A stretch of DNA of 64,000 nucleotides from Natronorubrum daqingense (lineage in GTDB: Archaea; Halobacteriota; Halobacteria; Halobacteriales; Natrialbaceae), in contig NZ_CP019327.1 in assembly GCF_001971705.1 (NCBI RefSeq), forward strand, positions 744,001 to 808,000, read 5' to 3'. Both the position numbers and the translations under genes were made by a program. Below the pieces are notes generated by a model, which was not told the DNA's origin, did no database searches, and was given only the letters and a program-made list of their open reading frames with translations. Of the stretch, positions 23,387 to 33,610 are shown piece by piece. How positions within the stretch are numbered: the first letter of the stretch is position 1; each line of letters opens with the position of its first letter.

Positions 23387-24112
23387 CTAAGCGTTTCCAT
23401 GCACTTCGGCGGCCGCTGGCTCGGGATCCTGACGCCAGTACAGCCACGGGCTGAGGGTCATGTAGGCGATGCCGAGTGTCAACAGTGCATACGGAAACGT
23501 GCGGCCGGCGAAACTCGGAATCAGGATCGCGAGGGCGTGGACGATGCCCATGATGGCCGCATCGCGAACGAGTAGATCGGGGTAGCGAATGCGAGAGACC
23601 ATCAGGTAACAGAACGCGCCCGTGATAGCGAGGACGAGCCAGGGTTCGGGGCGACCCGCGAGGATCGCCGCACCGAGAACGGTCGCCGCCAGCGTCGTCT
23701 GGACGCCTTCGGTGTAGTTCCCGGAGATGTCGTAGGCGGTATACATGCCGAGGCGGGTGACTGCCGTGGCGACGAAGAGGGCACAGACGGCCGTTACGAG
23801 GAGGAGTTCACCGGTCACCGCATCGAATCCGATCGCGAGGGCGTCCGTGACGACGACGAACGCGAGGACGGCGGGAGCGACGCCGAAAGAAGCGACGTCC
23901 GCTAACGAGTCGAGGTACGGTCCGGCGTCGGTCCCGCCGTAGCGGCGCGCGAGAATCCCGTCGAGACCGTCCGCGATGGCTGCAAGGAGGATGAGACGGG
24001 CGGCGAGATCGATATCGACGAACGCCACGACGATCGCGACGAACCCCAACGCGGCGTTTGCGATCGTCACGGCGTCGGCGACGCCGAGTCGCCCGACGAA
24101 CCGGGGGAGCAT
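23387..24112 (-). CDS. pssA: CDP-alcohol phosphatidyltransferase, archaetidylserine synthase
   Basis: 241-residue multi-pass membrane enzyme. The CDP-alcohol phosphotransferase motif is complete: DGLDGILARRYGGTDAGPYLDSLAD supplies the Asp-rich metal site. By family it transfers archaetidic acid from CDP-archaeol to serine. In haloarchaea PssA also supports archaeosortase-dependent protein anchoring. ATG 24112 (MLPRFVG) is chosen; the longer frame to 24289 is basic and overlaps the promoter of the divergent cupredoxin gene. The decarboxylase PssD is not seen here. Confidence 0.85.
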   Translation of the reverse strand: MLPRFVGRLGVADAVTIANAALGFVAIVVAFVDIDLAARLILLAAIADGLDGILARRYGGTDAGPYLDSLADVASFGVAPAVLAFVVVTDALAIGFDAVTGELLLVTAVCALFVATAVTRLGMYTAYDISGNYTEGVQTTLAATVLGAAILAGRPEPWLVLAITGAFCYLMVSRIRYPDLLVRDAAIMGIVHALAILIPSFAGRTFPYALLTLGIAYMTLSPWLYWRQDPEPAAAEVHGNA

Positions 24113-24269
24113 ACTCGCGGAATCGACGCGGAGCGACCTTACGTGTTTTCGTTTTCGTACACCGATACGTTCGCTCTGCGTCGTCCATCGACCCAACTGT
24201 GTCGGGCAGGTTCGAGACATCCACCGGCGACGGACAGGAGTCCCACGCTCGAGGAATGAACCGGGGTGG

Positions 24270-24275
24270 TTATAT
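24270..24275 (+). promoter_or_regulatory. TATA box of the cupredoxin gene
   Basis: TTATAT lies 23 bases before ATG 24299, the spacing of a leaderless haloarchaeal promoter; it also fixes the start codon. Confidence 0.55.
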
Positions 24276-24298
24276 CGCAACTGTCCCAACGCGTTCGT

Positions 24299-27962: not shown

Positions 27963-28925
27963 TTACGGTACTCGAGCGACGACGTCTAGATTGTGCGCGA
28001 CGTAGCCGAGGGTTCCCGCCTCGAGTTGCGTGCGTCGGCGCTCGAACCAGCGACGCCGTCTCTCCTCCGGAATCCGCGACGCTGCGGAAAGATCGTTCGA
28101 AGACACGGCCGCGAGCGCGTCGGCCATCGTCTCGAGGACGTGGGAGACGACCGCCTGCTCGCGGTGGGGATACCCGCCGGCGGTTGGAGACACGACCCAG
28201 TCCCCGCCCCCGGCCGCGAGGAGCGACCAGGGGCGGTCGGCTACCGACTCGAGGACCGCCGAGCCAGCGCGACTCCCCCCAGCGGGACGAACCTCGTCCA
28301 TGTGGTGATGATACTGAGTTTCGATGGTCTCGTCGAGTGGATCGCGGGGCGTGAACGCGGTCGAGCCGTTGTACGTGATCGGCGCGTAGCACAGGCCGTC
28401 GGGCGCGAGGAGCGACTCGATCGCCGCCAACGCGGACTCGAGGTCGACGATATCGAGGAACGCCGCCGCGATAACGGCGTCCGCGTCGTCCTCGAGCGTG
28501 AACGCGTCTGCGACTTCGAGCGTAATTTCGATGTCCGTCGCGGTCCCGCCGTCGCTCGAGGGGGACGACTGGGCCACGAACGTCGTCGCCTTCGGAACGC
28601 CGTCCGCGACCGTTTCGTCGCACACAGAGCGGGGCGCGCCGACCGTGTAGCCCGCTGACTCGAGGCGTTCCGGGACGCGCTCTCGCGCGCGAACGATACA
28701 CGACGGGTCGATATCGACGCCGCGGTAGGAAACGCGCGGCGGGAGCACGTCCCACTCGATCAGTCGGGAGAGCATCGCGCCGACGCCGACACCGAGTTCG
28801 ACGACGCGAACCGGTTCGCCCCGGCTCGAGAGCGCGCTCGTGAACTGATCGAGGACGCGCCGATCGAGCGCGCTGTCGTCCACGGTCCGTTTGGCCTCGA
28901 GGTACGTGAGAAACGAGGTCGTCAC
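27963..28925 (-). CDS. SAM-dependent methyltransferase of the pterin/lipid cluster
   Basis: 320-residue class I methyltransferase. Motif I is VVELGVGVGAM, and the acidic loop after strand 2 is YRGVDIDPS. The rest is an extended, family-specific C-terminus (GSTAFTPRDPLDETIETQYHHHMDEVRP and NDLSAASRIPEERRRRWFERRR). Starts with GTG at 28925, overlapping the stop of the glycosyltransferase gene by four bases, so it is the last gene of the operon. Substrate unknown. The His-rich HHHMDE region could bind metal or substrate (inference). Confidence 0.8.
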   Translation of the reverse strand: MTTSFLTYLEAKRTVDDSALDRRVLDQFTSALSSRGEPVRVVELGVGVGAMLSRLIEWDVLPPRVSYRGVDIDPSCIVRARERVPERLESAGYTVGAPRSVCDETVADGVPKATTFVAQSSPSSDGGTATDIEITLEVADAFTLEDDADAVIAAAFLDIVDLESALAAIESLLAPDGLCYAPITYNGSTAFTPRDPLDETIETQYHHHMDEVRPAGGSRAGSAVLESVADRPWSLLAAGGGDWVVSPTAGGYPHREQAVVSHVLETMADALAAVSSNDLSAASRIPEERRRRWFERRRTQLEAGTLGYVAHNLDVVARVP

Positions 28926-30028
28926 GGGTGCTCACCGCCGGTGCGTCCCGATCGGTGGATCGATCGGCGGAGAAATTCGCGGACGGATTCCAACGTGTCC
29001 GTCCACGACGGATGAGCCCGAGCGGTTCGCAGCGCCCCGACCCCGAGGGTCGCCAACCGGTCTCGGTCGTTTGCCAAACGCTCGAGTTGACCCGCCAATT
29101 GGCTCGAGTCGACTGGATCGATTAAAAACCCGTTCTCGCCGTCGGAGACGATCTCGCACGCGCCGCCGACGGTGCTGGCGATCGGGACGACGCCGTATTC
29201 CATCGCCTCGAGATAAGCCATACCGAATCCTTCGTAGCGAGAGGGACCGGCGAGGACGTGTGCGTCCTCGAGAGTCGACTCGAGGACTGACGCCGCCACT
29301 TCACCGGCGAACGTCACCCGGTCGTCGATACCGAGTTCGACCGCTCGTTCGCGGGCCGCGCTGGCGTACGCTGGATCCGCATCCTTGCGGCCGACGGCGG
29401 TGAGCGACCACTCCGTCGACGAACTGTCGAGTCGAGCGAGCGCCTCGAGGAGGGTCGTGACGTTCTTTCGCGCTTCGAGCGTGCCGATGGAGACGACACG
29501 AAATGGATCGCGGTGGGCACGCGTCTCGACTGTGTCCGGCGTCAACGCTGGCCCGTCGTGACGACCAGCGGGGTGTGCGACCTGTGTCGGGAGGTCCGTT
29601 CCGGCGAGGGCGAGCGTCCGATCTCGCGTGTACTCGCTGGTACAGATCGCCGCGTCGACCGACTCGAGATAGCGCCATTCGCGTTCGCGAGCACGCGGAT
29701 CGTAGACCGTCGGATCGGGCGCTCTGAGGAGGTGAACGAGCGAAACGAGCGCCCCCGGACGCTCGAGTCGGGGGTTGTACTCGAGGAGCCTCGCGTAGCA
29801 GAGTTCGTCCTGCAAGAGGACGTCGTAGGGTCTATCGAGTCGCGTCTGCAGTTCGCTCGAGGGGGCAGCGCTGGTCCGATCGCCGACGGACTCTTCGGAC
29901 GCTTCGGAAAGCGAAATCACGTCGATGGTATCTCCCCGGGACTCGAGAAACTCGACGAGTTTGCGGTCGTAGCGATAGCCGCCGGTTGCCTGCTCGAGGT
30001 CGCCGTCGACGACGAGGCCAACCCTCAT
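28922..30028 (-). CDS. GT4-type glycosyltransferase
   Basis: 368-residue GT-B fold enzyme of family 4. The C-terminal half has VVSIGTLEARKNVTTLLEAL and the EX7E motif in EGFGMAYLEAMEYG, which bind the nucleotide-sugar donor. The N-terminal half (VGLVVDGDLEQATGGYRYDRKLVEFL) has the glycine-rich acceptor-side loop. It starts with ATG 30028, three bases after the stop of the pterin-synthase-like gene. Neither donor nor acceptor can be deduced; the context suggests a small molecule or lipid. Confidence 0.87.
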   Translation of the reverse strand: MRVGLVVDGDLEQATGGYRYDRKLVEFLESRGDTIDVISLSEASEESVGDRTSAAPSSELQTRLDRPYDVLLQDELCYARLLEYNPRLERPGALVSLVHLLRAPDPTVYDPRAREREWRYLESVDAAICTSEYTRDRTLALAGTDLPTQVAHPAGRHDGPALTPDTVETRAHRDPFRVVSIGTLEARKNVTTLLEALARLDSSSTEWSLTAVGRKDADPAYASAARERAVELGIDDRVTFAGEVAASVLESTLEDAHVLAGPSRYEGFGMAYLEAMEYGVVPIASTVGGACEIVSDGENGFLIDPVDSSQLAGQLERLANDRDRLATLGVGALRTARAHPSWTDTLESVREFLRRSIHRSGRTGGEHP

Positions 30029-30031
30029 CGG

Positions 30032-30409
30032 TCAACACGTCCGTTCGTGGGCCACACTGGCCACGTCGTCTTCGTCGATGGCGATTCGAAGCTCGGAAAC
30101 GCCGTCCGGATCGAGCTGCTCGAGGAGTCGGTCGCCGAAGCAGCGCGCGAAGCGTTCGGTGCTCGGGTTGGCTCCCTCGAACGCGTCGAGATCGTTGAGC
30201 GTCCGGTCGCTGTAGAACGCGGCGAGCGCGTCCATCGTTTCGCACAATCTGTCGATGTCCACGAGATACCCCCGTTCGTCCAGCTCGGGGCCTCGCAACG
30301 TCGCCTCGACCGTGTATCGGTGGGAGTGGAGTTTCCCTTCCGGCCCCGGATCGGGAACGGTCAGGTAGTGCTGGGCGATGATTTCCCGGGAGACGGACAC
30401 CGAATACAT
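30032..30409 (-). CDS. 6-pyruvoyl-tetrahydropterin synthase / QueD-like protein
   Basis: 125-residue T-fold protein. The zinc ligands are retained: His14 in IIAQHYL, and His28 and His30 in LHSHRY. The catalytic Cys of QueD and PTPS, four residues before the first His of HGH, is Glu24 here, and HGH is HSH. A Glu at the active site is reported for PTPS subfamilies thought to cleave the dihydroneopterin side chain in folate-type pathways. A reaction on a 7,8-dihydroneopterin derivative is therefore plausible, but not shown. It sits in the middle of the minus-strand operon. ATG 30409 is chosen because the longer frame is Arg-rich. Confidence 0.75.
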   Translation of the reverse strand: MYSVSVSREIIAQHYLTVPDPGPEGKLHSHRYTVEATLRGPELDERGYLVDIDRLCETMDALAAFYSDRTLNDLDAFEGANPSTERFARCFGDRLLEQLDPDGVSELRIAIDEDDVASVAHERTC

Positions 30410-30504
30410 ACTCGGTCGTACGCCAGCATTCGGCAAAACGACCGGGGCTGCTCGCAGCGGATGAGGAGAGACCAACGACGCTCGGCGTCGGTCGACAAGG
30501 ACGT

Positions 30505-31530
30505 TCAGTCGTAGGTCAACAGGATCTGGATCGCCTCGCCCGGTCGGTCCTCGAGCAACTCGTAGGCCGTCGCGGCGTCTTCGAGGGGTATTTCGTGCGT
30601 GATGAGCGGTGTGACCTCGAGTCGCTCGAGCCACTGCCAGGTGAGGTCGTGACGGCGTTCGCGAGACCACCGGCCCGAGAGTCGCGGGTCGATCGTACTC
30701 ACCTGCGAGCTTCGGATGTCGATTCGGTCGCGGTGAAATCGACCGCCGAGATCGAGATTTGCGGGCTTCGTGCCGTACCACGAACCGACGAGCACGCGCC
30801 CGTCGAAGCCCGTCGACGCGATGGCGTCGTTCAGGGCCTCGGGGTTCCCGGAGAGTTCGTACGTCAGGTCCGCCCGCGCGTCCGTGACCGCTCGAACGGT
30901 GTCGGGAAACTCCCGATCGGTCGGATCGAACGACCGATCCGCGCCGAGACGTTCGGAGTGGCGGCGACGCTTCGCGTGGGGTTCGAACGTGAGCAGCGTC
31001 TCGAGTGGCGCGCGGGCGAGCAGCGCGGTCGTCAACAGGCCGACGGTTCCCTGCCCGAAGACGGCGACGTGCTCGCCCAGTCGTGGCTCGCCGTCCAGTG
31101 TGAGTGTCACCGCGGTCTCGAGGTTCGCGAAGAGGGCTGCTTCGCGCGGCGAGATTCCGTCGGGAACGGGAAAGAGGTCGCTAGGCTCGGCGAGAAAGTG
31201 GCTTTCGTGTGCATTGTACGCGAAGACGGTTCGCTCGAGCCACTTTTCGGCCACATCGTCGCCGACGGCGACGACCTCGCCGACCGCGGCGTAGCCGTAC
31301 CGAAGTGGAAAGGAGAGATCCCCATCGAGGGCCTCGAGTTCGTCGTCGGCCGCGAGGTTCGTCGGGGCGTCCCCCCGGAAAATCAGCCCCTCCGTGCCGG
31401 CGCTGATCGCCGACGTTCTCGTCCGAACGAGTACGTCAGTTGATCCCGGTTCCGGGATCGGGTTCGATTCGACGGCGACGCTCTTCGGACCCGTAAAAAC
31501 CAGGCCGTGAGCGTCGCTCGAGGATCGCAT
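30505..31530 (-). CDS. zinc-alcohol-dehydrogenase-like oxidoreductase (MDR family)
   Basis: 341 residues from ATG 31530; a GTG at 31602 would add 24 acidic residues. The GroES-like half has RTRTSAISAGTEGLIFRGD, where ordinary alcohol dehydrogenases have the zinc-binding GICGTD. The usual catalytic Cys is therefore absent, as in BchC-like members. The Rossmann half has FGQGTVGLLTTALLARAP for NAD(P). The C-terminal part includes GSWYGTKPANLDLGGRFHRDRI. It likely acts as an oxidoreductase on a cluster intermediate. It lies 95 bases upstream of the pterin-synthase-like gene. Confidence 0.8.
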   Translation of the reverse strand: MRSSSDAHGLVFTGPKSVAVESNPIPEPGSTDVLVRTRTSAISAGTEGLIFRGDAPTNLAADDELEALDGDLSFPLRYGYAAVGEVVAVGDDVAEKWLERTVFAYNAHESHFLAEPSDLFPVPDGISPREAALFANLETAVTLTLDGEPRLGEHVAVFGQGTVGLLTTALLARAPLETLLTFEPHAKRRRHSERLGADRSFDPTDREFPDTVRAVTDARADLTYELSGNPEALNDAIASTGFDGRVLVGSWYGTKPANLDLGGRFHRDRIDIRSSQVSTIDPRLSGRWSRERRHDLTWQWLERLEVTPLITHEIPLEDAATAYELLEDRPGEAIQILLTYD

Positions 31531-31775
31531 CGTCGCTCGCCGATTGGATCGTGGAGGACCACCGGCCGACGACGGGGAGTCCTCGGCGTCAGAGTCGGTC
31601 ACGCTGGACCGTCGTTCCACGTCACCCCACTTGGTCGTTTGTGCGAACGGCGTCGGTACGGGTTCGAACAGCGTCGGTACGATGGCCATACGTTGCCCCC
31701 GGTTGTCGCGCGCCGACGACCGGTCGATGTAGACGAGCATTTCCGACCCATAGGTAGCGGTTACGTCCCCTGCGT

Positions 31776-32579
31776 CTACCACTTCTCGAAGCGGCCGGAA
31801 ACCGCGAGCCAGTCCCAGCAGAAGTTCGCGAGAACGGGAACGGCGACGAGCAAACCGAGCCAGTACGAAACGGCCGGGCTGGGAACCGGCGTCAGAGCGA
31901 GCAACACGGCGAGCATGGCGAAGCCACCGAGTGGCCGACGGAGTCGGTTCGCCGGGAGCGTCGACACGCTCCGCCCGCGCCACGTTCGCCACCGTCGGCC
32001 GGCGACGAACAGGTACCGGGCGACGGCAACGGCGAGGAAGACGAGCGGGAGCGTCCCGGCAGCGATGGCCACGACGGAGCCCACGAGAATCGCCAGCGCG
32101 TCCACTTCGACGTCGAGTCGCGAGCCGAACGCCGTCTCGCTGTTCGTTCGTCGGGCGACCGCACCGTCGACGGCGTCGAAGACCATCGCGAGCGCGAACA
32201 ACGCGGCCGGGGCCCAGGGACCGATCCCCGACTCCGTTGGGAGTCCAGTCGCGACGAATCCGGCGAGGACCACAACCGCTCCAGCGCGGGCGATGGTCAC
32301 CCACGTCGCGAGTGTAACCGACTGCTCCGTCGCATCTCGTGGTGACTGGGCTGGTTTCGCCGATATCGGAGTCCCTTCGTCGAAGAGGATCCACACGAGT
32401 AGCACCTCGAGAACGACGACAAGCGCGACCGCGCCGAGAAACGCGCGCGATGGGCCAGCGGACCAGACCAACTCGAGTGCGAGAAGCGTTCCGGCCACCA
32501 TCGCGACGTGCCCCGCACCCACGGTGATCCACCGGGAGAAATTGCCTCTCGAGAGCCCAACGTGCGTTTCGTCGGTCAT
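31776..32579 (-). CDS. CDP-alcohol phosphatidyltransferase family membrane protein
   Basis: 267 residues with about seven membrane helices. The CDP-alcohol phosphotransferase motif reads FDAVDGAVARRTNSETAFGSRLDVEVD, preserving the D-x-x-D-G-x-x-A-R start and the later Asp pair. By family it transfers a phospho-lipid or phospho-alcohol group from a CDP-activated donor. It differs from pssA at 23.4 kb, so the window holds two such enzymes. Its start overlaps the stop of the next upstream gene (ATGA). It is probably the membrane-anchoring step of the cluster (inference). Confidence 0.82.
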   Translation of the reverse strand: MTDETHVGLSRGNFSRWITVGAGHVAMVAGTLLALELVWSAGPSRAFLGAVALVVVLEVLLVWILFDEGTPISAKPAQSPRDATEQSVTLATWVTIARAGAVVVLAGFVATGLPTESGIGPWAPAALFALAMVFDAVDGAVARRTNSETAFGSRLDVEVDALAILVGSVVAIAAGTLPLVFLAVAVARYLFVAGRRWRTWRGRSVSTLPANRLRRPLGGFAMLAVLLALTPVPSPAVSYWLGLLVAVPVLANFCWDWLAVSGRFEKW

Positions 32580-32944
32580 CGCTCTCGTCGATAGAGGATC
32601 ACCAGCGCGACGATCAGCAGGATCTGTGCGAGCTTGTCGATCAGTTCCGCACTCGAGAGGTCGGCGACGGTCGCCGGCTCGTTCAGGACGTACCAGAGCA
32701 CGATCTGTGCGGCCGTAAACGGAATTCCGAGGAGATAGACCGTCGATCGCCGGTAGTCCGCGACGACGAGTCCGATCCCCAGCAGGAAGCCTGCAGTCGC
32801 GAACAGGAAGGCGAGTCCCATCCAGTGGGGAAGGAACTCGAGTCCCAGAATCAAGTGAACGAGCCCGGTGACGAGCGCGAGTCCGATCGCCATCCAGTGG
32901 AGGGGTGTGAGCGTGGCGAGCCCGATTCGGTTCGCGGCGATCAT
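32576..32944 (-). CDS. four-helix membrane protein
   Basis: 122 residues from ATG 32944 (MIAANRIGLATLTPLHWM). There are four hydrophobic segments: PLHWMAIGLALVTGLVHLILG, WMGLAFLFATAGFLLGIGLVVA, VYLLGIPFTAAQIVLWYVL and LAQILLIVALVILY. It overlaps the CDP-alcohol transferase gene by four bases and is the first gene of the operon. I do not know its function. The LTPLHW start and His in the first helix look conserved-type, but that is a guess. Confidence 0.7.
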   Translation of the reverse strand: MIAANRIGLATLTPLHWMAIGLALVTGLVHLILGLEFLPHWMGLAFLFATAGFLLGIGLVVADYRRSTVYLLGIPFTAAQIVLWYVLNEPATVADLSSAELIDKLAQILLIVALVILYRRER

Positions 32945-33004: not shown

Positions 33005-33610
33005 TTACATTTTGTTCGCGGGCGGAACCGTCCGTTCGCTTGGACTTGTAGAACCACCATTGCCACGCATTACGCGAATCCCGGCACCGATCCCGAGCGT
33101 GCCGGCGAAGAGCACAGCGAGCAGCGTCGTCACGAGGGAGAGTCCAACGATTCCGCTGAGGAGACTCCCGGCGAACACGCCGGCCCACAACTGGTTTCGC
33201 CCCAGTCGTGAGGCGATCGACTGGCCGAGTGCCACGAATCCGAGAACCGTCAGGATCGGGATAACGGTCATCCCCAGTGTCACCATTAGTAAGCCGAAGA
33301 ACGAACCGAGCGTCGTACCGACGATCATGTAACCGCCGGCGACGAGCCCGACGAGAACGAGTAACGCCGGTGTCCCGATACAGATCGAAATGACGGGACT
33401 CGTTCGCGATTTGGTTACCGTCTCCGGTCCGAACCCCTGTACCAACCCGAGTACGACCATCGCAACGACGAGCGTGATTCCGAACTGAACCCCCGCGCGC
33501 TCGAGCGCCTCCAGTGCCAGATACGCCTCGAGTCCACCGGTAATCACGGCTGGGTGGCCGATTGACTCAAGTGCTGCCCCACCGATACTATATGAATCTA
33601 CTGGCCGCAT
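33005..33610 (-). CDS. multi-pass membrane protein
   Basis: 201 residues. After a soluble N-terminal 35 residues there are hydrophobic segments: GITLVVAMVVLGLVQG, VISICIGTPALLVLVGLVAGGYMIVG, LLMVTLGMTVIPILTVLGFVALG and VFAGSLLSGIVGLSLVTTLLAVLFAG. The tail GGSTSPSERTVPPANK is hydrophilic. It resembles the membrane half of haloarchaeal bactofilin-like or DUF5518-like proteins, but I cannot assign a family. It is separated by 60 bases from the operon at 32944 and may lead it. It is divergent from the L1 operon. Confidence 0.65.
   Translation of the reverse strand: MRPVDSYSIGGAALESIGHPAVITGGLEAYLALEALERAGVQFGITLVVAMVVLGLVQGFGPETVTKSRTSPVISICIGTPALLVLVGLVAGGYMIVGTTLGSFFGLLMVTLGMTVIPILTVLGFVALGQSIASRLGRNQLWAGVFAGSLLSGIVGLSLVTTLLAVLFAGTLGIGAGIRVMRGNGGSTSPSERTVPPANKM

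Follow-up and report, generated by a model that had tools for sequence, protein, structure and literature searches.

The stretch of DNA analysed here, hereafter the window, covers 64,000 nucleotides of the haloarchaeon Natronorubrum daqingense (NZ_CP019327.1, positions 744,001 to 808,000) and carries, at 27963-32944 on the minus strand, a block of six genes. This block represents, in haloarchaeal form, an orphan pathway that was already half known in Streptomyces. In reading direction, the block begins with a DUF7475 membrane protein of a cluster subtype (32576-32944; PF24287, 42 bits), followed by a CDP-alcohol phosphatidyltransferase family enzyme (31776-32579; PF01066 CDP-OH_P_transf, 60.5 bits), a BchC-like MDR oxidoreductase without catalytic zinc ligands, here called ADH (30505-31530; PF00107 ADH_zinc_N, 41.8 bits), a PTPS (COG0720) homologue with an ExxxHSH motif (30032-30409; PF01242, 75.2 bits), a glycosyltransferase of family 4 (GT4; 28922-30028; PF00534 Glycos_transf_1, 113 bits) and a class I S-adenosylmethionine-dependent methyltransferase (MT; 27963-28925; PF08242 Methyltransf_12, 32.4 bits). 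All six match their Pfam families over cut-off, in agreement with an earlier note on this DNA that had named the same six families from the letters. The joints, in the same order, measure -4, 245, 95, +3 and -4 bases: the ATG of the CDP-alcohol transferase overlaps the DUF7475 stop, GT4 starts 3 bases past the PTPS stop, and MT starts with a GTG overlapping the GT4 stop. Exactly three joints are thus tight, as the note had it, two being 4-base overlaps and one a 3-base gap.

Of 292 genomes sampled from the class, 171 have a relative of the window PTPS, as do 54 of the 76 genera. To assess the linkage, 46 haloarchaeal loci with wide flanks, 45 picked for holding PTPS and one (L045) found via ADH, were scored by tblastn for the partner genes: ADH is present in 38, MT in 37, the CDP-alcohol transferase in 31, GT4 in 30 and DUF7475 in 25. 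In the window, the block is flanked by ribosomal protein L11 on one side and L1/L10/L12 on the other, both on the plus strand, but only 8 of the 25 loci with DUF7475 sit at L11/L1. The order CDP-alcohol transferase-ADH-PTPS-GT4-MT recurs among haloarchaea at unrelated genomic sites, and the cluster lies on a megaplasmid in Natronorubrum bangense, Haloarcula and others. Because this order is kept at so many sites, the linkage is selected and not a by-product of one location. In addition, most genomes having both PTPS and the weakly scoring, cluster-type DUF7475 hold the two within ~6 kb of each other, while PTPS-less genomes have only the high-scoring DUF7475 type or none (one marginal match in G013).

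The gene set also reaches far beyond the haloarchaea. A scan of species genomes gave at least 563 bacterial PTPS relatives, 80 of which were kept as loci; these come from Actinomycetota, Pseudomonadota, Acidobacteria, Longimicrobiales and Nannocystaceae, and the set is spread over hundreds of soil and marine bacteria of several phyla. Among the 58 loci that are complete, having 6.5 kb or more of sequence on each side, ADH and MT are each found in 58, GT4 in 57 and the CDP-alcohol transferase in 55, together with a lipid-flippase-like PF03706 (LPG_synthase_TM) gene in 49, RibA in 43, RibD_C in 37 and a creatininase in 35, so that RibA, creatininase or RibD_C occurs in 55. ADH-PTPS-GT4-MT in one direction with an adjoining CDP-alcohol transferase is common to the window and the bacterial loci. 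Streptomyces fungicidicus (L046), for example, has CDP-alcohol transferase, ADH, PTPS, GT4, MT, creatininase and ribA together, and variants with RibD-family genes occur in Thiodictyon, Methylosinus and Palleronia. The actinobacterial gene set beside a GTP cyclohydrolase-like gene, which the earlier note had suggested, is therefore real, in S. fungicidicus and in many more loci. A bacterial-type cluster was also seen on a 5.2-kb contig of a metagenome-assembled genome labelled 'Natrialbaceae' (L080), which is probably mis-binned.

One may argue that the six genes are chance neighbours, each serving its own pathway, since the 245- and 95-base gaps divide the block into two parts and haloarchaea differ in which of the genes they have. 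However, the same order is found in archaea and several bacterial phyla at many genomic places, and these counts already refute chance, to which we give practically no weight. The earlier note had staked its operon idea on co-occurrence in other genomes, and the genes do co-occur, in haloarchaea as in bacteria: the six genes belong together, far beyond chance.

The best match of the PTPS homologue in the PDB by sequence is SCO6650 of S. coelicolor (3d7j, E 6e-11), which is also its best match by fold (Foldseek E 2.6e-10, TMq 0.89), and its predicted structure is a confident T-fold (pLDDT 92.8). It keeps His14, His28 and His30 (H28-S-H30) as well as Glu113, but the Cys, Asp, His triad of QueD has become Glu, Ser, Asp, and CxxxHGH has become ExxxHSH. 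In the bacterial cluster PTPS the third zinc histidine is lost too (HGA). Hence the window protein, with H14 and H28-S-H30, is a variant of the SCO6650 type that is not zinc-ligand-free. Its score against the NCBIfam QueD equivalog TIGR03367 is 41.4 bits for a cut-off of 89.25. Judged from its residues, the window PTPS is not QueD, because the triad is replaced and the genome has its own, separate QueD gene with CxxxHGH. The earlier label of a QueD-like enzyme thus holds for the family but not for the mechanism. The same mislabelling is seen in plasmid records (H1-H22), where the PTPS is annotated as '6-carboxytetrahydropterin synthase' with a queuosine GO term, despite a QueD score far under cut-off and missing catalytic residues. 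A phylogeny built from QueD and cluster PTPS sequences unites the haloarchaeal and bacterial cluster types with each other (94/52) ahead of any QueD sequence, and 96% of the bootstrap replicates hold QueD together on one side; the haloarchaeal group (96/95) and the bacterial group (96/89) each form one side of a branch, but branches are long and the sister grouping calls for caution. The block was called uncharacterised in the earlier note, which is half true: the pathway is still an orphan, but the SCO6650 structure is solved and COG0720 subfamilies of unclear role, such as PTPS-V, are on record (PMC5041015).

Among the other core enzymes, the CDP-alcohol transferase has the full DxxDGxxARx8GxxxDxxxD motif at residues 135-160 and multiple hydrophobic segments. 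The MDR oxidoreductase has GxGxxG and a SxxSxGTE motif kept from haloarchaea to bacteria, but not a single cysteine, and it lacks the Cys/His/Cys catalytic zinc ligands of zinc-dependent alcohol dehydrogenases; its database name, 'zinc-binding alcohol dehydrogenase', is thus misleading. The MT model is a confident Rossmann-type fold (pLDDT 91.7) that in the PDB comes closest to methyltransferases of small molecules and lipids, but comparison with solved structures gave only generic folds with respect to the MT acceptor, and only general GT4 enzymes in the case of GT4. A role in defence was also considered and rejected, as PADLOC gave just a weak, generic methyltransferase match.

Upstream of DUF7475, a strongly hydrophobic 201-aa membrane protein (33005-33610, minus strand) is a probable seventh component in Natrialbaceae. 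It matched no Pfam or NCBIfam family, but its gene stays upstream of DUF7475 in related loci (L021-L027, L029), and in L027 the two persist while L11 and L1 were not found in the 17-kb locus. The bacterial PF03706 gene, by comparison, is ruled out as a general haloarchaeal cluster member: its haloarchaeal copies lie away from the cluster, the nearest ~5 kb off and in one genome only (G029). Some haloarchaea have other genes inserted in the cluster. A 240-270 aa family with no Pfam match stands between DUF7475 and the CDP-alcohol transferase (L028:6677-7486, L027:5619-6425), and two congeners have a Bat-type HTH_10 regulator and a second small open reading frame between ADH and PTPS (L022:7327-8467, L023:6788-7928), which hints at cluster-specific control. 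The window also contains a second CDP-alcohol phosphatidyltransferase gene (23387-24289, minus strand), 3.7 kb off and beyond PEP carboxykinase-like, CutA-like and L11 genes; it keeps its own neighbourhood in the closest congeners and lies outside the cluster.

What feeds the pathway is indicated by genes that accompany the core. In a survey of 36 haloarchaeal genomes, ArfA (GTP cyclohydrolase III, PF05165) was found in 35, in a housekeeping role. The gene is present twice in four genomes, each time with one copy inside the PTPS cluster; in G037 the sole copy lies there. Across the 46 haloarchaeal loci, ArfA is present in 14, sometimes with a creatininase (G033, Haloarcula). Archaeal ArfB enzymes belong to the creatininase family. 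The product of ArfA is a formylaminopyrimidine (FAPy) nucleotide, according to PMC8305020, which cites Graham 2002. In bacteria, the RibA paralogues point the same way. Across the actinomycete clusters, the column of the catalytic-site Tyr105 of E. coli RibA (2bz0) has Met, His or Cys in 26 RibAs, and a creatininase adjoins in 26 of 26, whereas none of the 8 with Tyr has one, a pattern to be read with the caveat that all Tyr loci come from one family, the Micromonosporaceae. SCO6655 reportedly makes FAPy owing to its Met120 (Spoonamore 2006). If the cyclohydrolase does not remove the formyl group, a deformylase would have to follow, and the pairing of RibA residue and creatininase fits that logic. 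Moreover, the RibD-family protein in the Thiodictyon cluster best matches 2,5-diamino-6-ribosylaminopyrimidinone 5'-phosphate reductases, which act on a 2-amino, not a deaminated, pyrimidine and would thus keep the 2-amino group needed by a pterin. RibD_C was not found in the haloarchaeal cluster; most haloarchaeal genomes have one housekeeping copy.

Such entry genes raise the possibility that the cluster belongs to a known cofactor route, namely F420, riboflavin, folate, or queuosine/archaeosine. ArfA, which is in the cluster in some genomes, feeds riboflavin and F420 synthesis. In addition, a PTPS-IV subgroup has been attributed to F420 synthesis as unpublished data (PMC5041015). However, none of the 36 genomes lacks CofD, whereas a third of them lack PTPS, and thus F420 does not need the cluster PTPS; arfA, too, is there in 35 of 36 genomes wherever it is located. 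QueD is a separate gene, and the window motif ExxxHSH is neither CxxxHGH nor the ExxHGH of the folate enzyme PTPS-III (PMC5041015), its Glu preceding the first His by four residues instead of three. Furthermore, GT4, MT and the CDP-alcohol transferase have no place in any of these routes. Roles in F420, folate and queuosine synthesis are accordingly rejected or disfavoured, and a known cofactor route as a whole is very improbable.

We consider it somewhat probable that the cluster makes a FAPy-derived, pterin-like nucleus that undergoes a redox change, receives a sugar and a methyl group and is linked to a CDP-activated, presumably lipid, alcohol. Observed are the linkage of the genes, their families, the altered active sites and the FAPy-type entry genes; from these we infer the core reactions, their order and the product as follows. 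GTP would be opened to the FAPy nucleotide, by ArfA in haloarchaea and by RibA paralogues in bacteria, and deformylated by an ArfB-like enzyme of the creatininase family; in many bacteria a RibD-type reduction would come next, with the 2-amino group retained. The divergent PTPS would then bind the 2-amino-4-oxopyrimidine via its conserved Glu and, by chemistry that differs from QueD's, form a pterin-like nucleus, and the zinc-free MDR enzyme would oxidise or reduce this nucleus. GT4 would add a sugar and MT a methyl group, and the CDP-alcohol transferase would form a phosphodiester with an alcohol supplied as its CDP derivative, for which CDP-archaeol or CDP-diacylglycerol is the simplest choice. 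The result might be a pterin glycoside anchored in the membrane, with the small membrane proteins handling it. A lipid-linked product is favoured by the PF03706 gene in 49 of the 58 bacterial loci and by the DUF7475 and 201-aa membrane proteins of haloarchaea. The outline in the earlier note, a pterin that is oxidised or reduced, glycosylated, methylated and joined to a phospholipid-type alcohol, thus fits the families, and the flippase-like gene fits its lipid link, while the product itself stays conjectural. More tentatively, and short of an even chance, Archaea and Bacteria may share an undescribed class of membrane-anchored pterin (or FAPy-derived) glycophospholipids, with a dedicated pathway that starts from FAPy, not from dihydroneopterin triphosphate, and depends on a PTPS with new chemistry.

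Several observations weigh against this proposal, and the first bears on the lipid. CDP-alcohol transferases are not limited to lipids and can take soluble alcohols, so that the lipid linkage is our presumption, and the same gene families would serve to make a soluble pterin glycoside or phosphodiester from a small CDP-alcohol. Charged pterins of halophiles (e.g. the halopterins of Lin and White) and the neopterin glycoside solfapterin would presumably be compounds of this kind. Solfapterin and halopterins were reportedly described in 1987-88, and the earlier note's 'new kind of archaeal metabolite' is therefore too strong for a pterin glycoside as such. Since the transferase family comes with the flippase-like gene in bacteria and with membrane proteins in haloarchaea, a membrane product is suggested, and we regard a soluble one as rather unlikely. 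Secondly, the bacterial PTPS lacks zinc histidines kept in haloarchaea, and hence the two may differ in chemistry. This loss, together with that of the triad in both branches, also speaks for a pyrimidine that stays open, without ring closure to a pterin, the PTPS being a binding or isomerising T-fold and the product a ribityl-pyrimidine, lumazine or flavin-like glycolipid; the ribityl form would come from the RibD-type reductases present in 37 of the 58 bacterial loci. Yet the kept pterin-pocket Glu and the haloarchaeal zinc histidines suggest pterin-type chemistry, making an unclosed pyrimidine doubtful. Thirdly, gene content does not always follow the proposal of a lipid-linked pterin: some of the 46 haloarchaeal loci have no GT4, MT or CDP-alcohol transferase near PTPS, and the window cluster has neither arfA nor creatininase, the single arfA of the genome lying ~50 kb off (C1:828361). 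Orphan loci (L181, L182, L183) also exist in which a cluster-type PTPS, with Asp in place of the Glu of ExxxHSH in L183, stands without any other cluster gene. Finally, cluster RibAs of Pseudomonadota mostly have Tyr even though a creatininase, if a weak match to the family, adjoins (7 loci).

A natural experiment is offered by Haloarcula. In H. marismortui ATCC 43049 the cluster PTPS on pHMA411 is frameshifted by a single-base deletion inside the HSH motif (L201:7501-7862), and in a second record of the same strain (NC_006395.1, L202:1001-1362) the PTPS match is likewise broken into two across these 362 bases, where the annotation has no gene. The PTPS of H. sinaiiensis is intact (L052:7001-7378) and otherwise identical to that of H. 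marismortui over 400 bases. ADH, GT4 and MT beside the frameshifted gene are annotated as intact. The two type strains thus form a natural mutant pair.

In summary, the earlier note was largely right, and the finding reaches further than it described: an orphan pathway whose product is yet to be isolated is kept by the majority of the haloarchaeal genera sampled, and hundreds of bacteria have it as well. New here are its archaeal form and its FAPy-type start, which, combined with a disarmed PTPS and a CDP-alcohol transferase, predicts a type of metabolite that could be sought by mass spectrometry. This reading would also correct many database entries that name the cluster PTPS a queuosine enzyme.

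Among known systems, QueD (PTPS-I) shares the T-fold, zinc histidines and pocket Glu with the window PTPS and differs in its catalytic residues, its TIGR03367 score and its separate place in the genome. BchC, an MDR dehydrogenase of bacteriochlorophyll synthesis, is a distant relative of the window MDR protein, which scores 51.8 bits to TIGR01202, far under the BchC cut-off of 291 bits, and stands in another gene context. The archaeal ArfA-ArfB-ArfC entry to riboflavin and F420 resembles the FAPy-forming cyclohydrolase, creatininase-family and RibD-type partners of the clusters, but here extra, cluster-borne copies are followed by PTPS, GT4, MT and a CDP-alcohol transferase. The closest counterpart is the SCO6650-SCO6655-type orphan cluster of Streptomyces, with the same ADH-PTPS-GT4-MT order and a CDP-alcohol transferase. 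In contrast to that bacterial type, with HGA in its PTPS, RibA as cyclohydrolase and a PF03706 protein, the haloarchaeal type keeps three zinc histidines (HxH), uses ArfA and has DUF7475.

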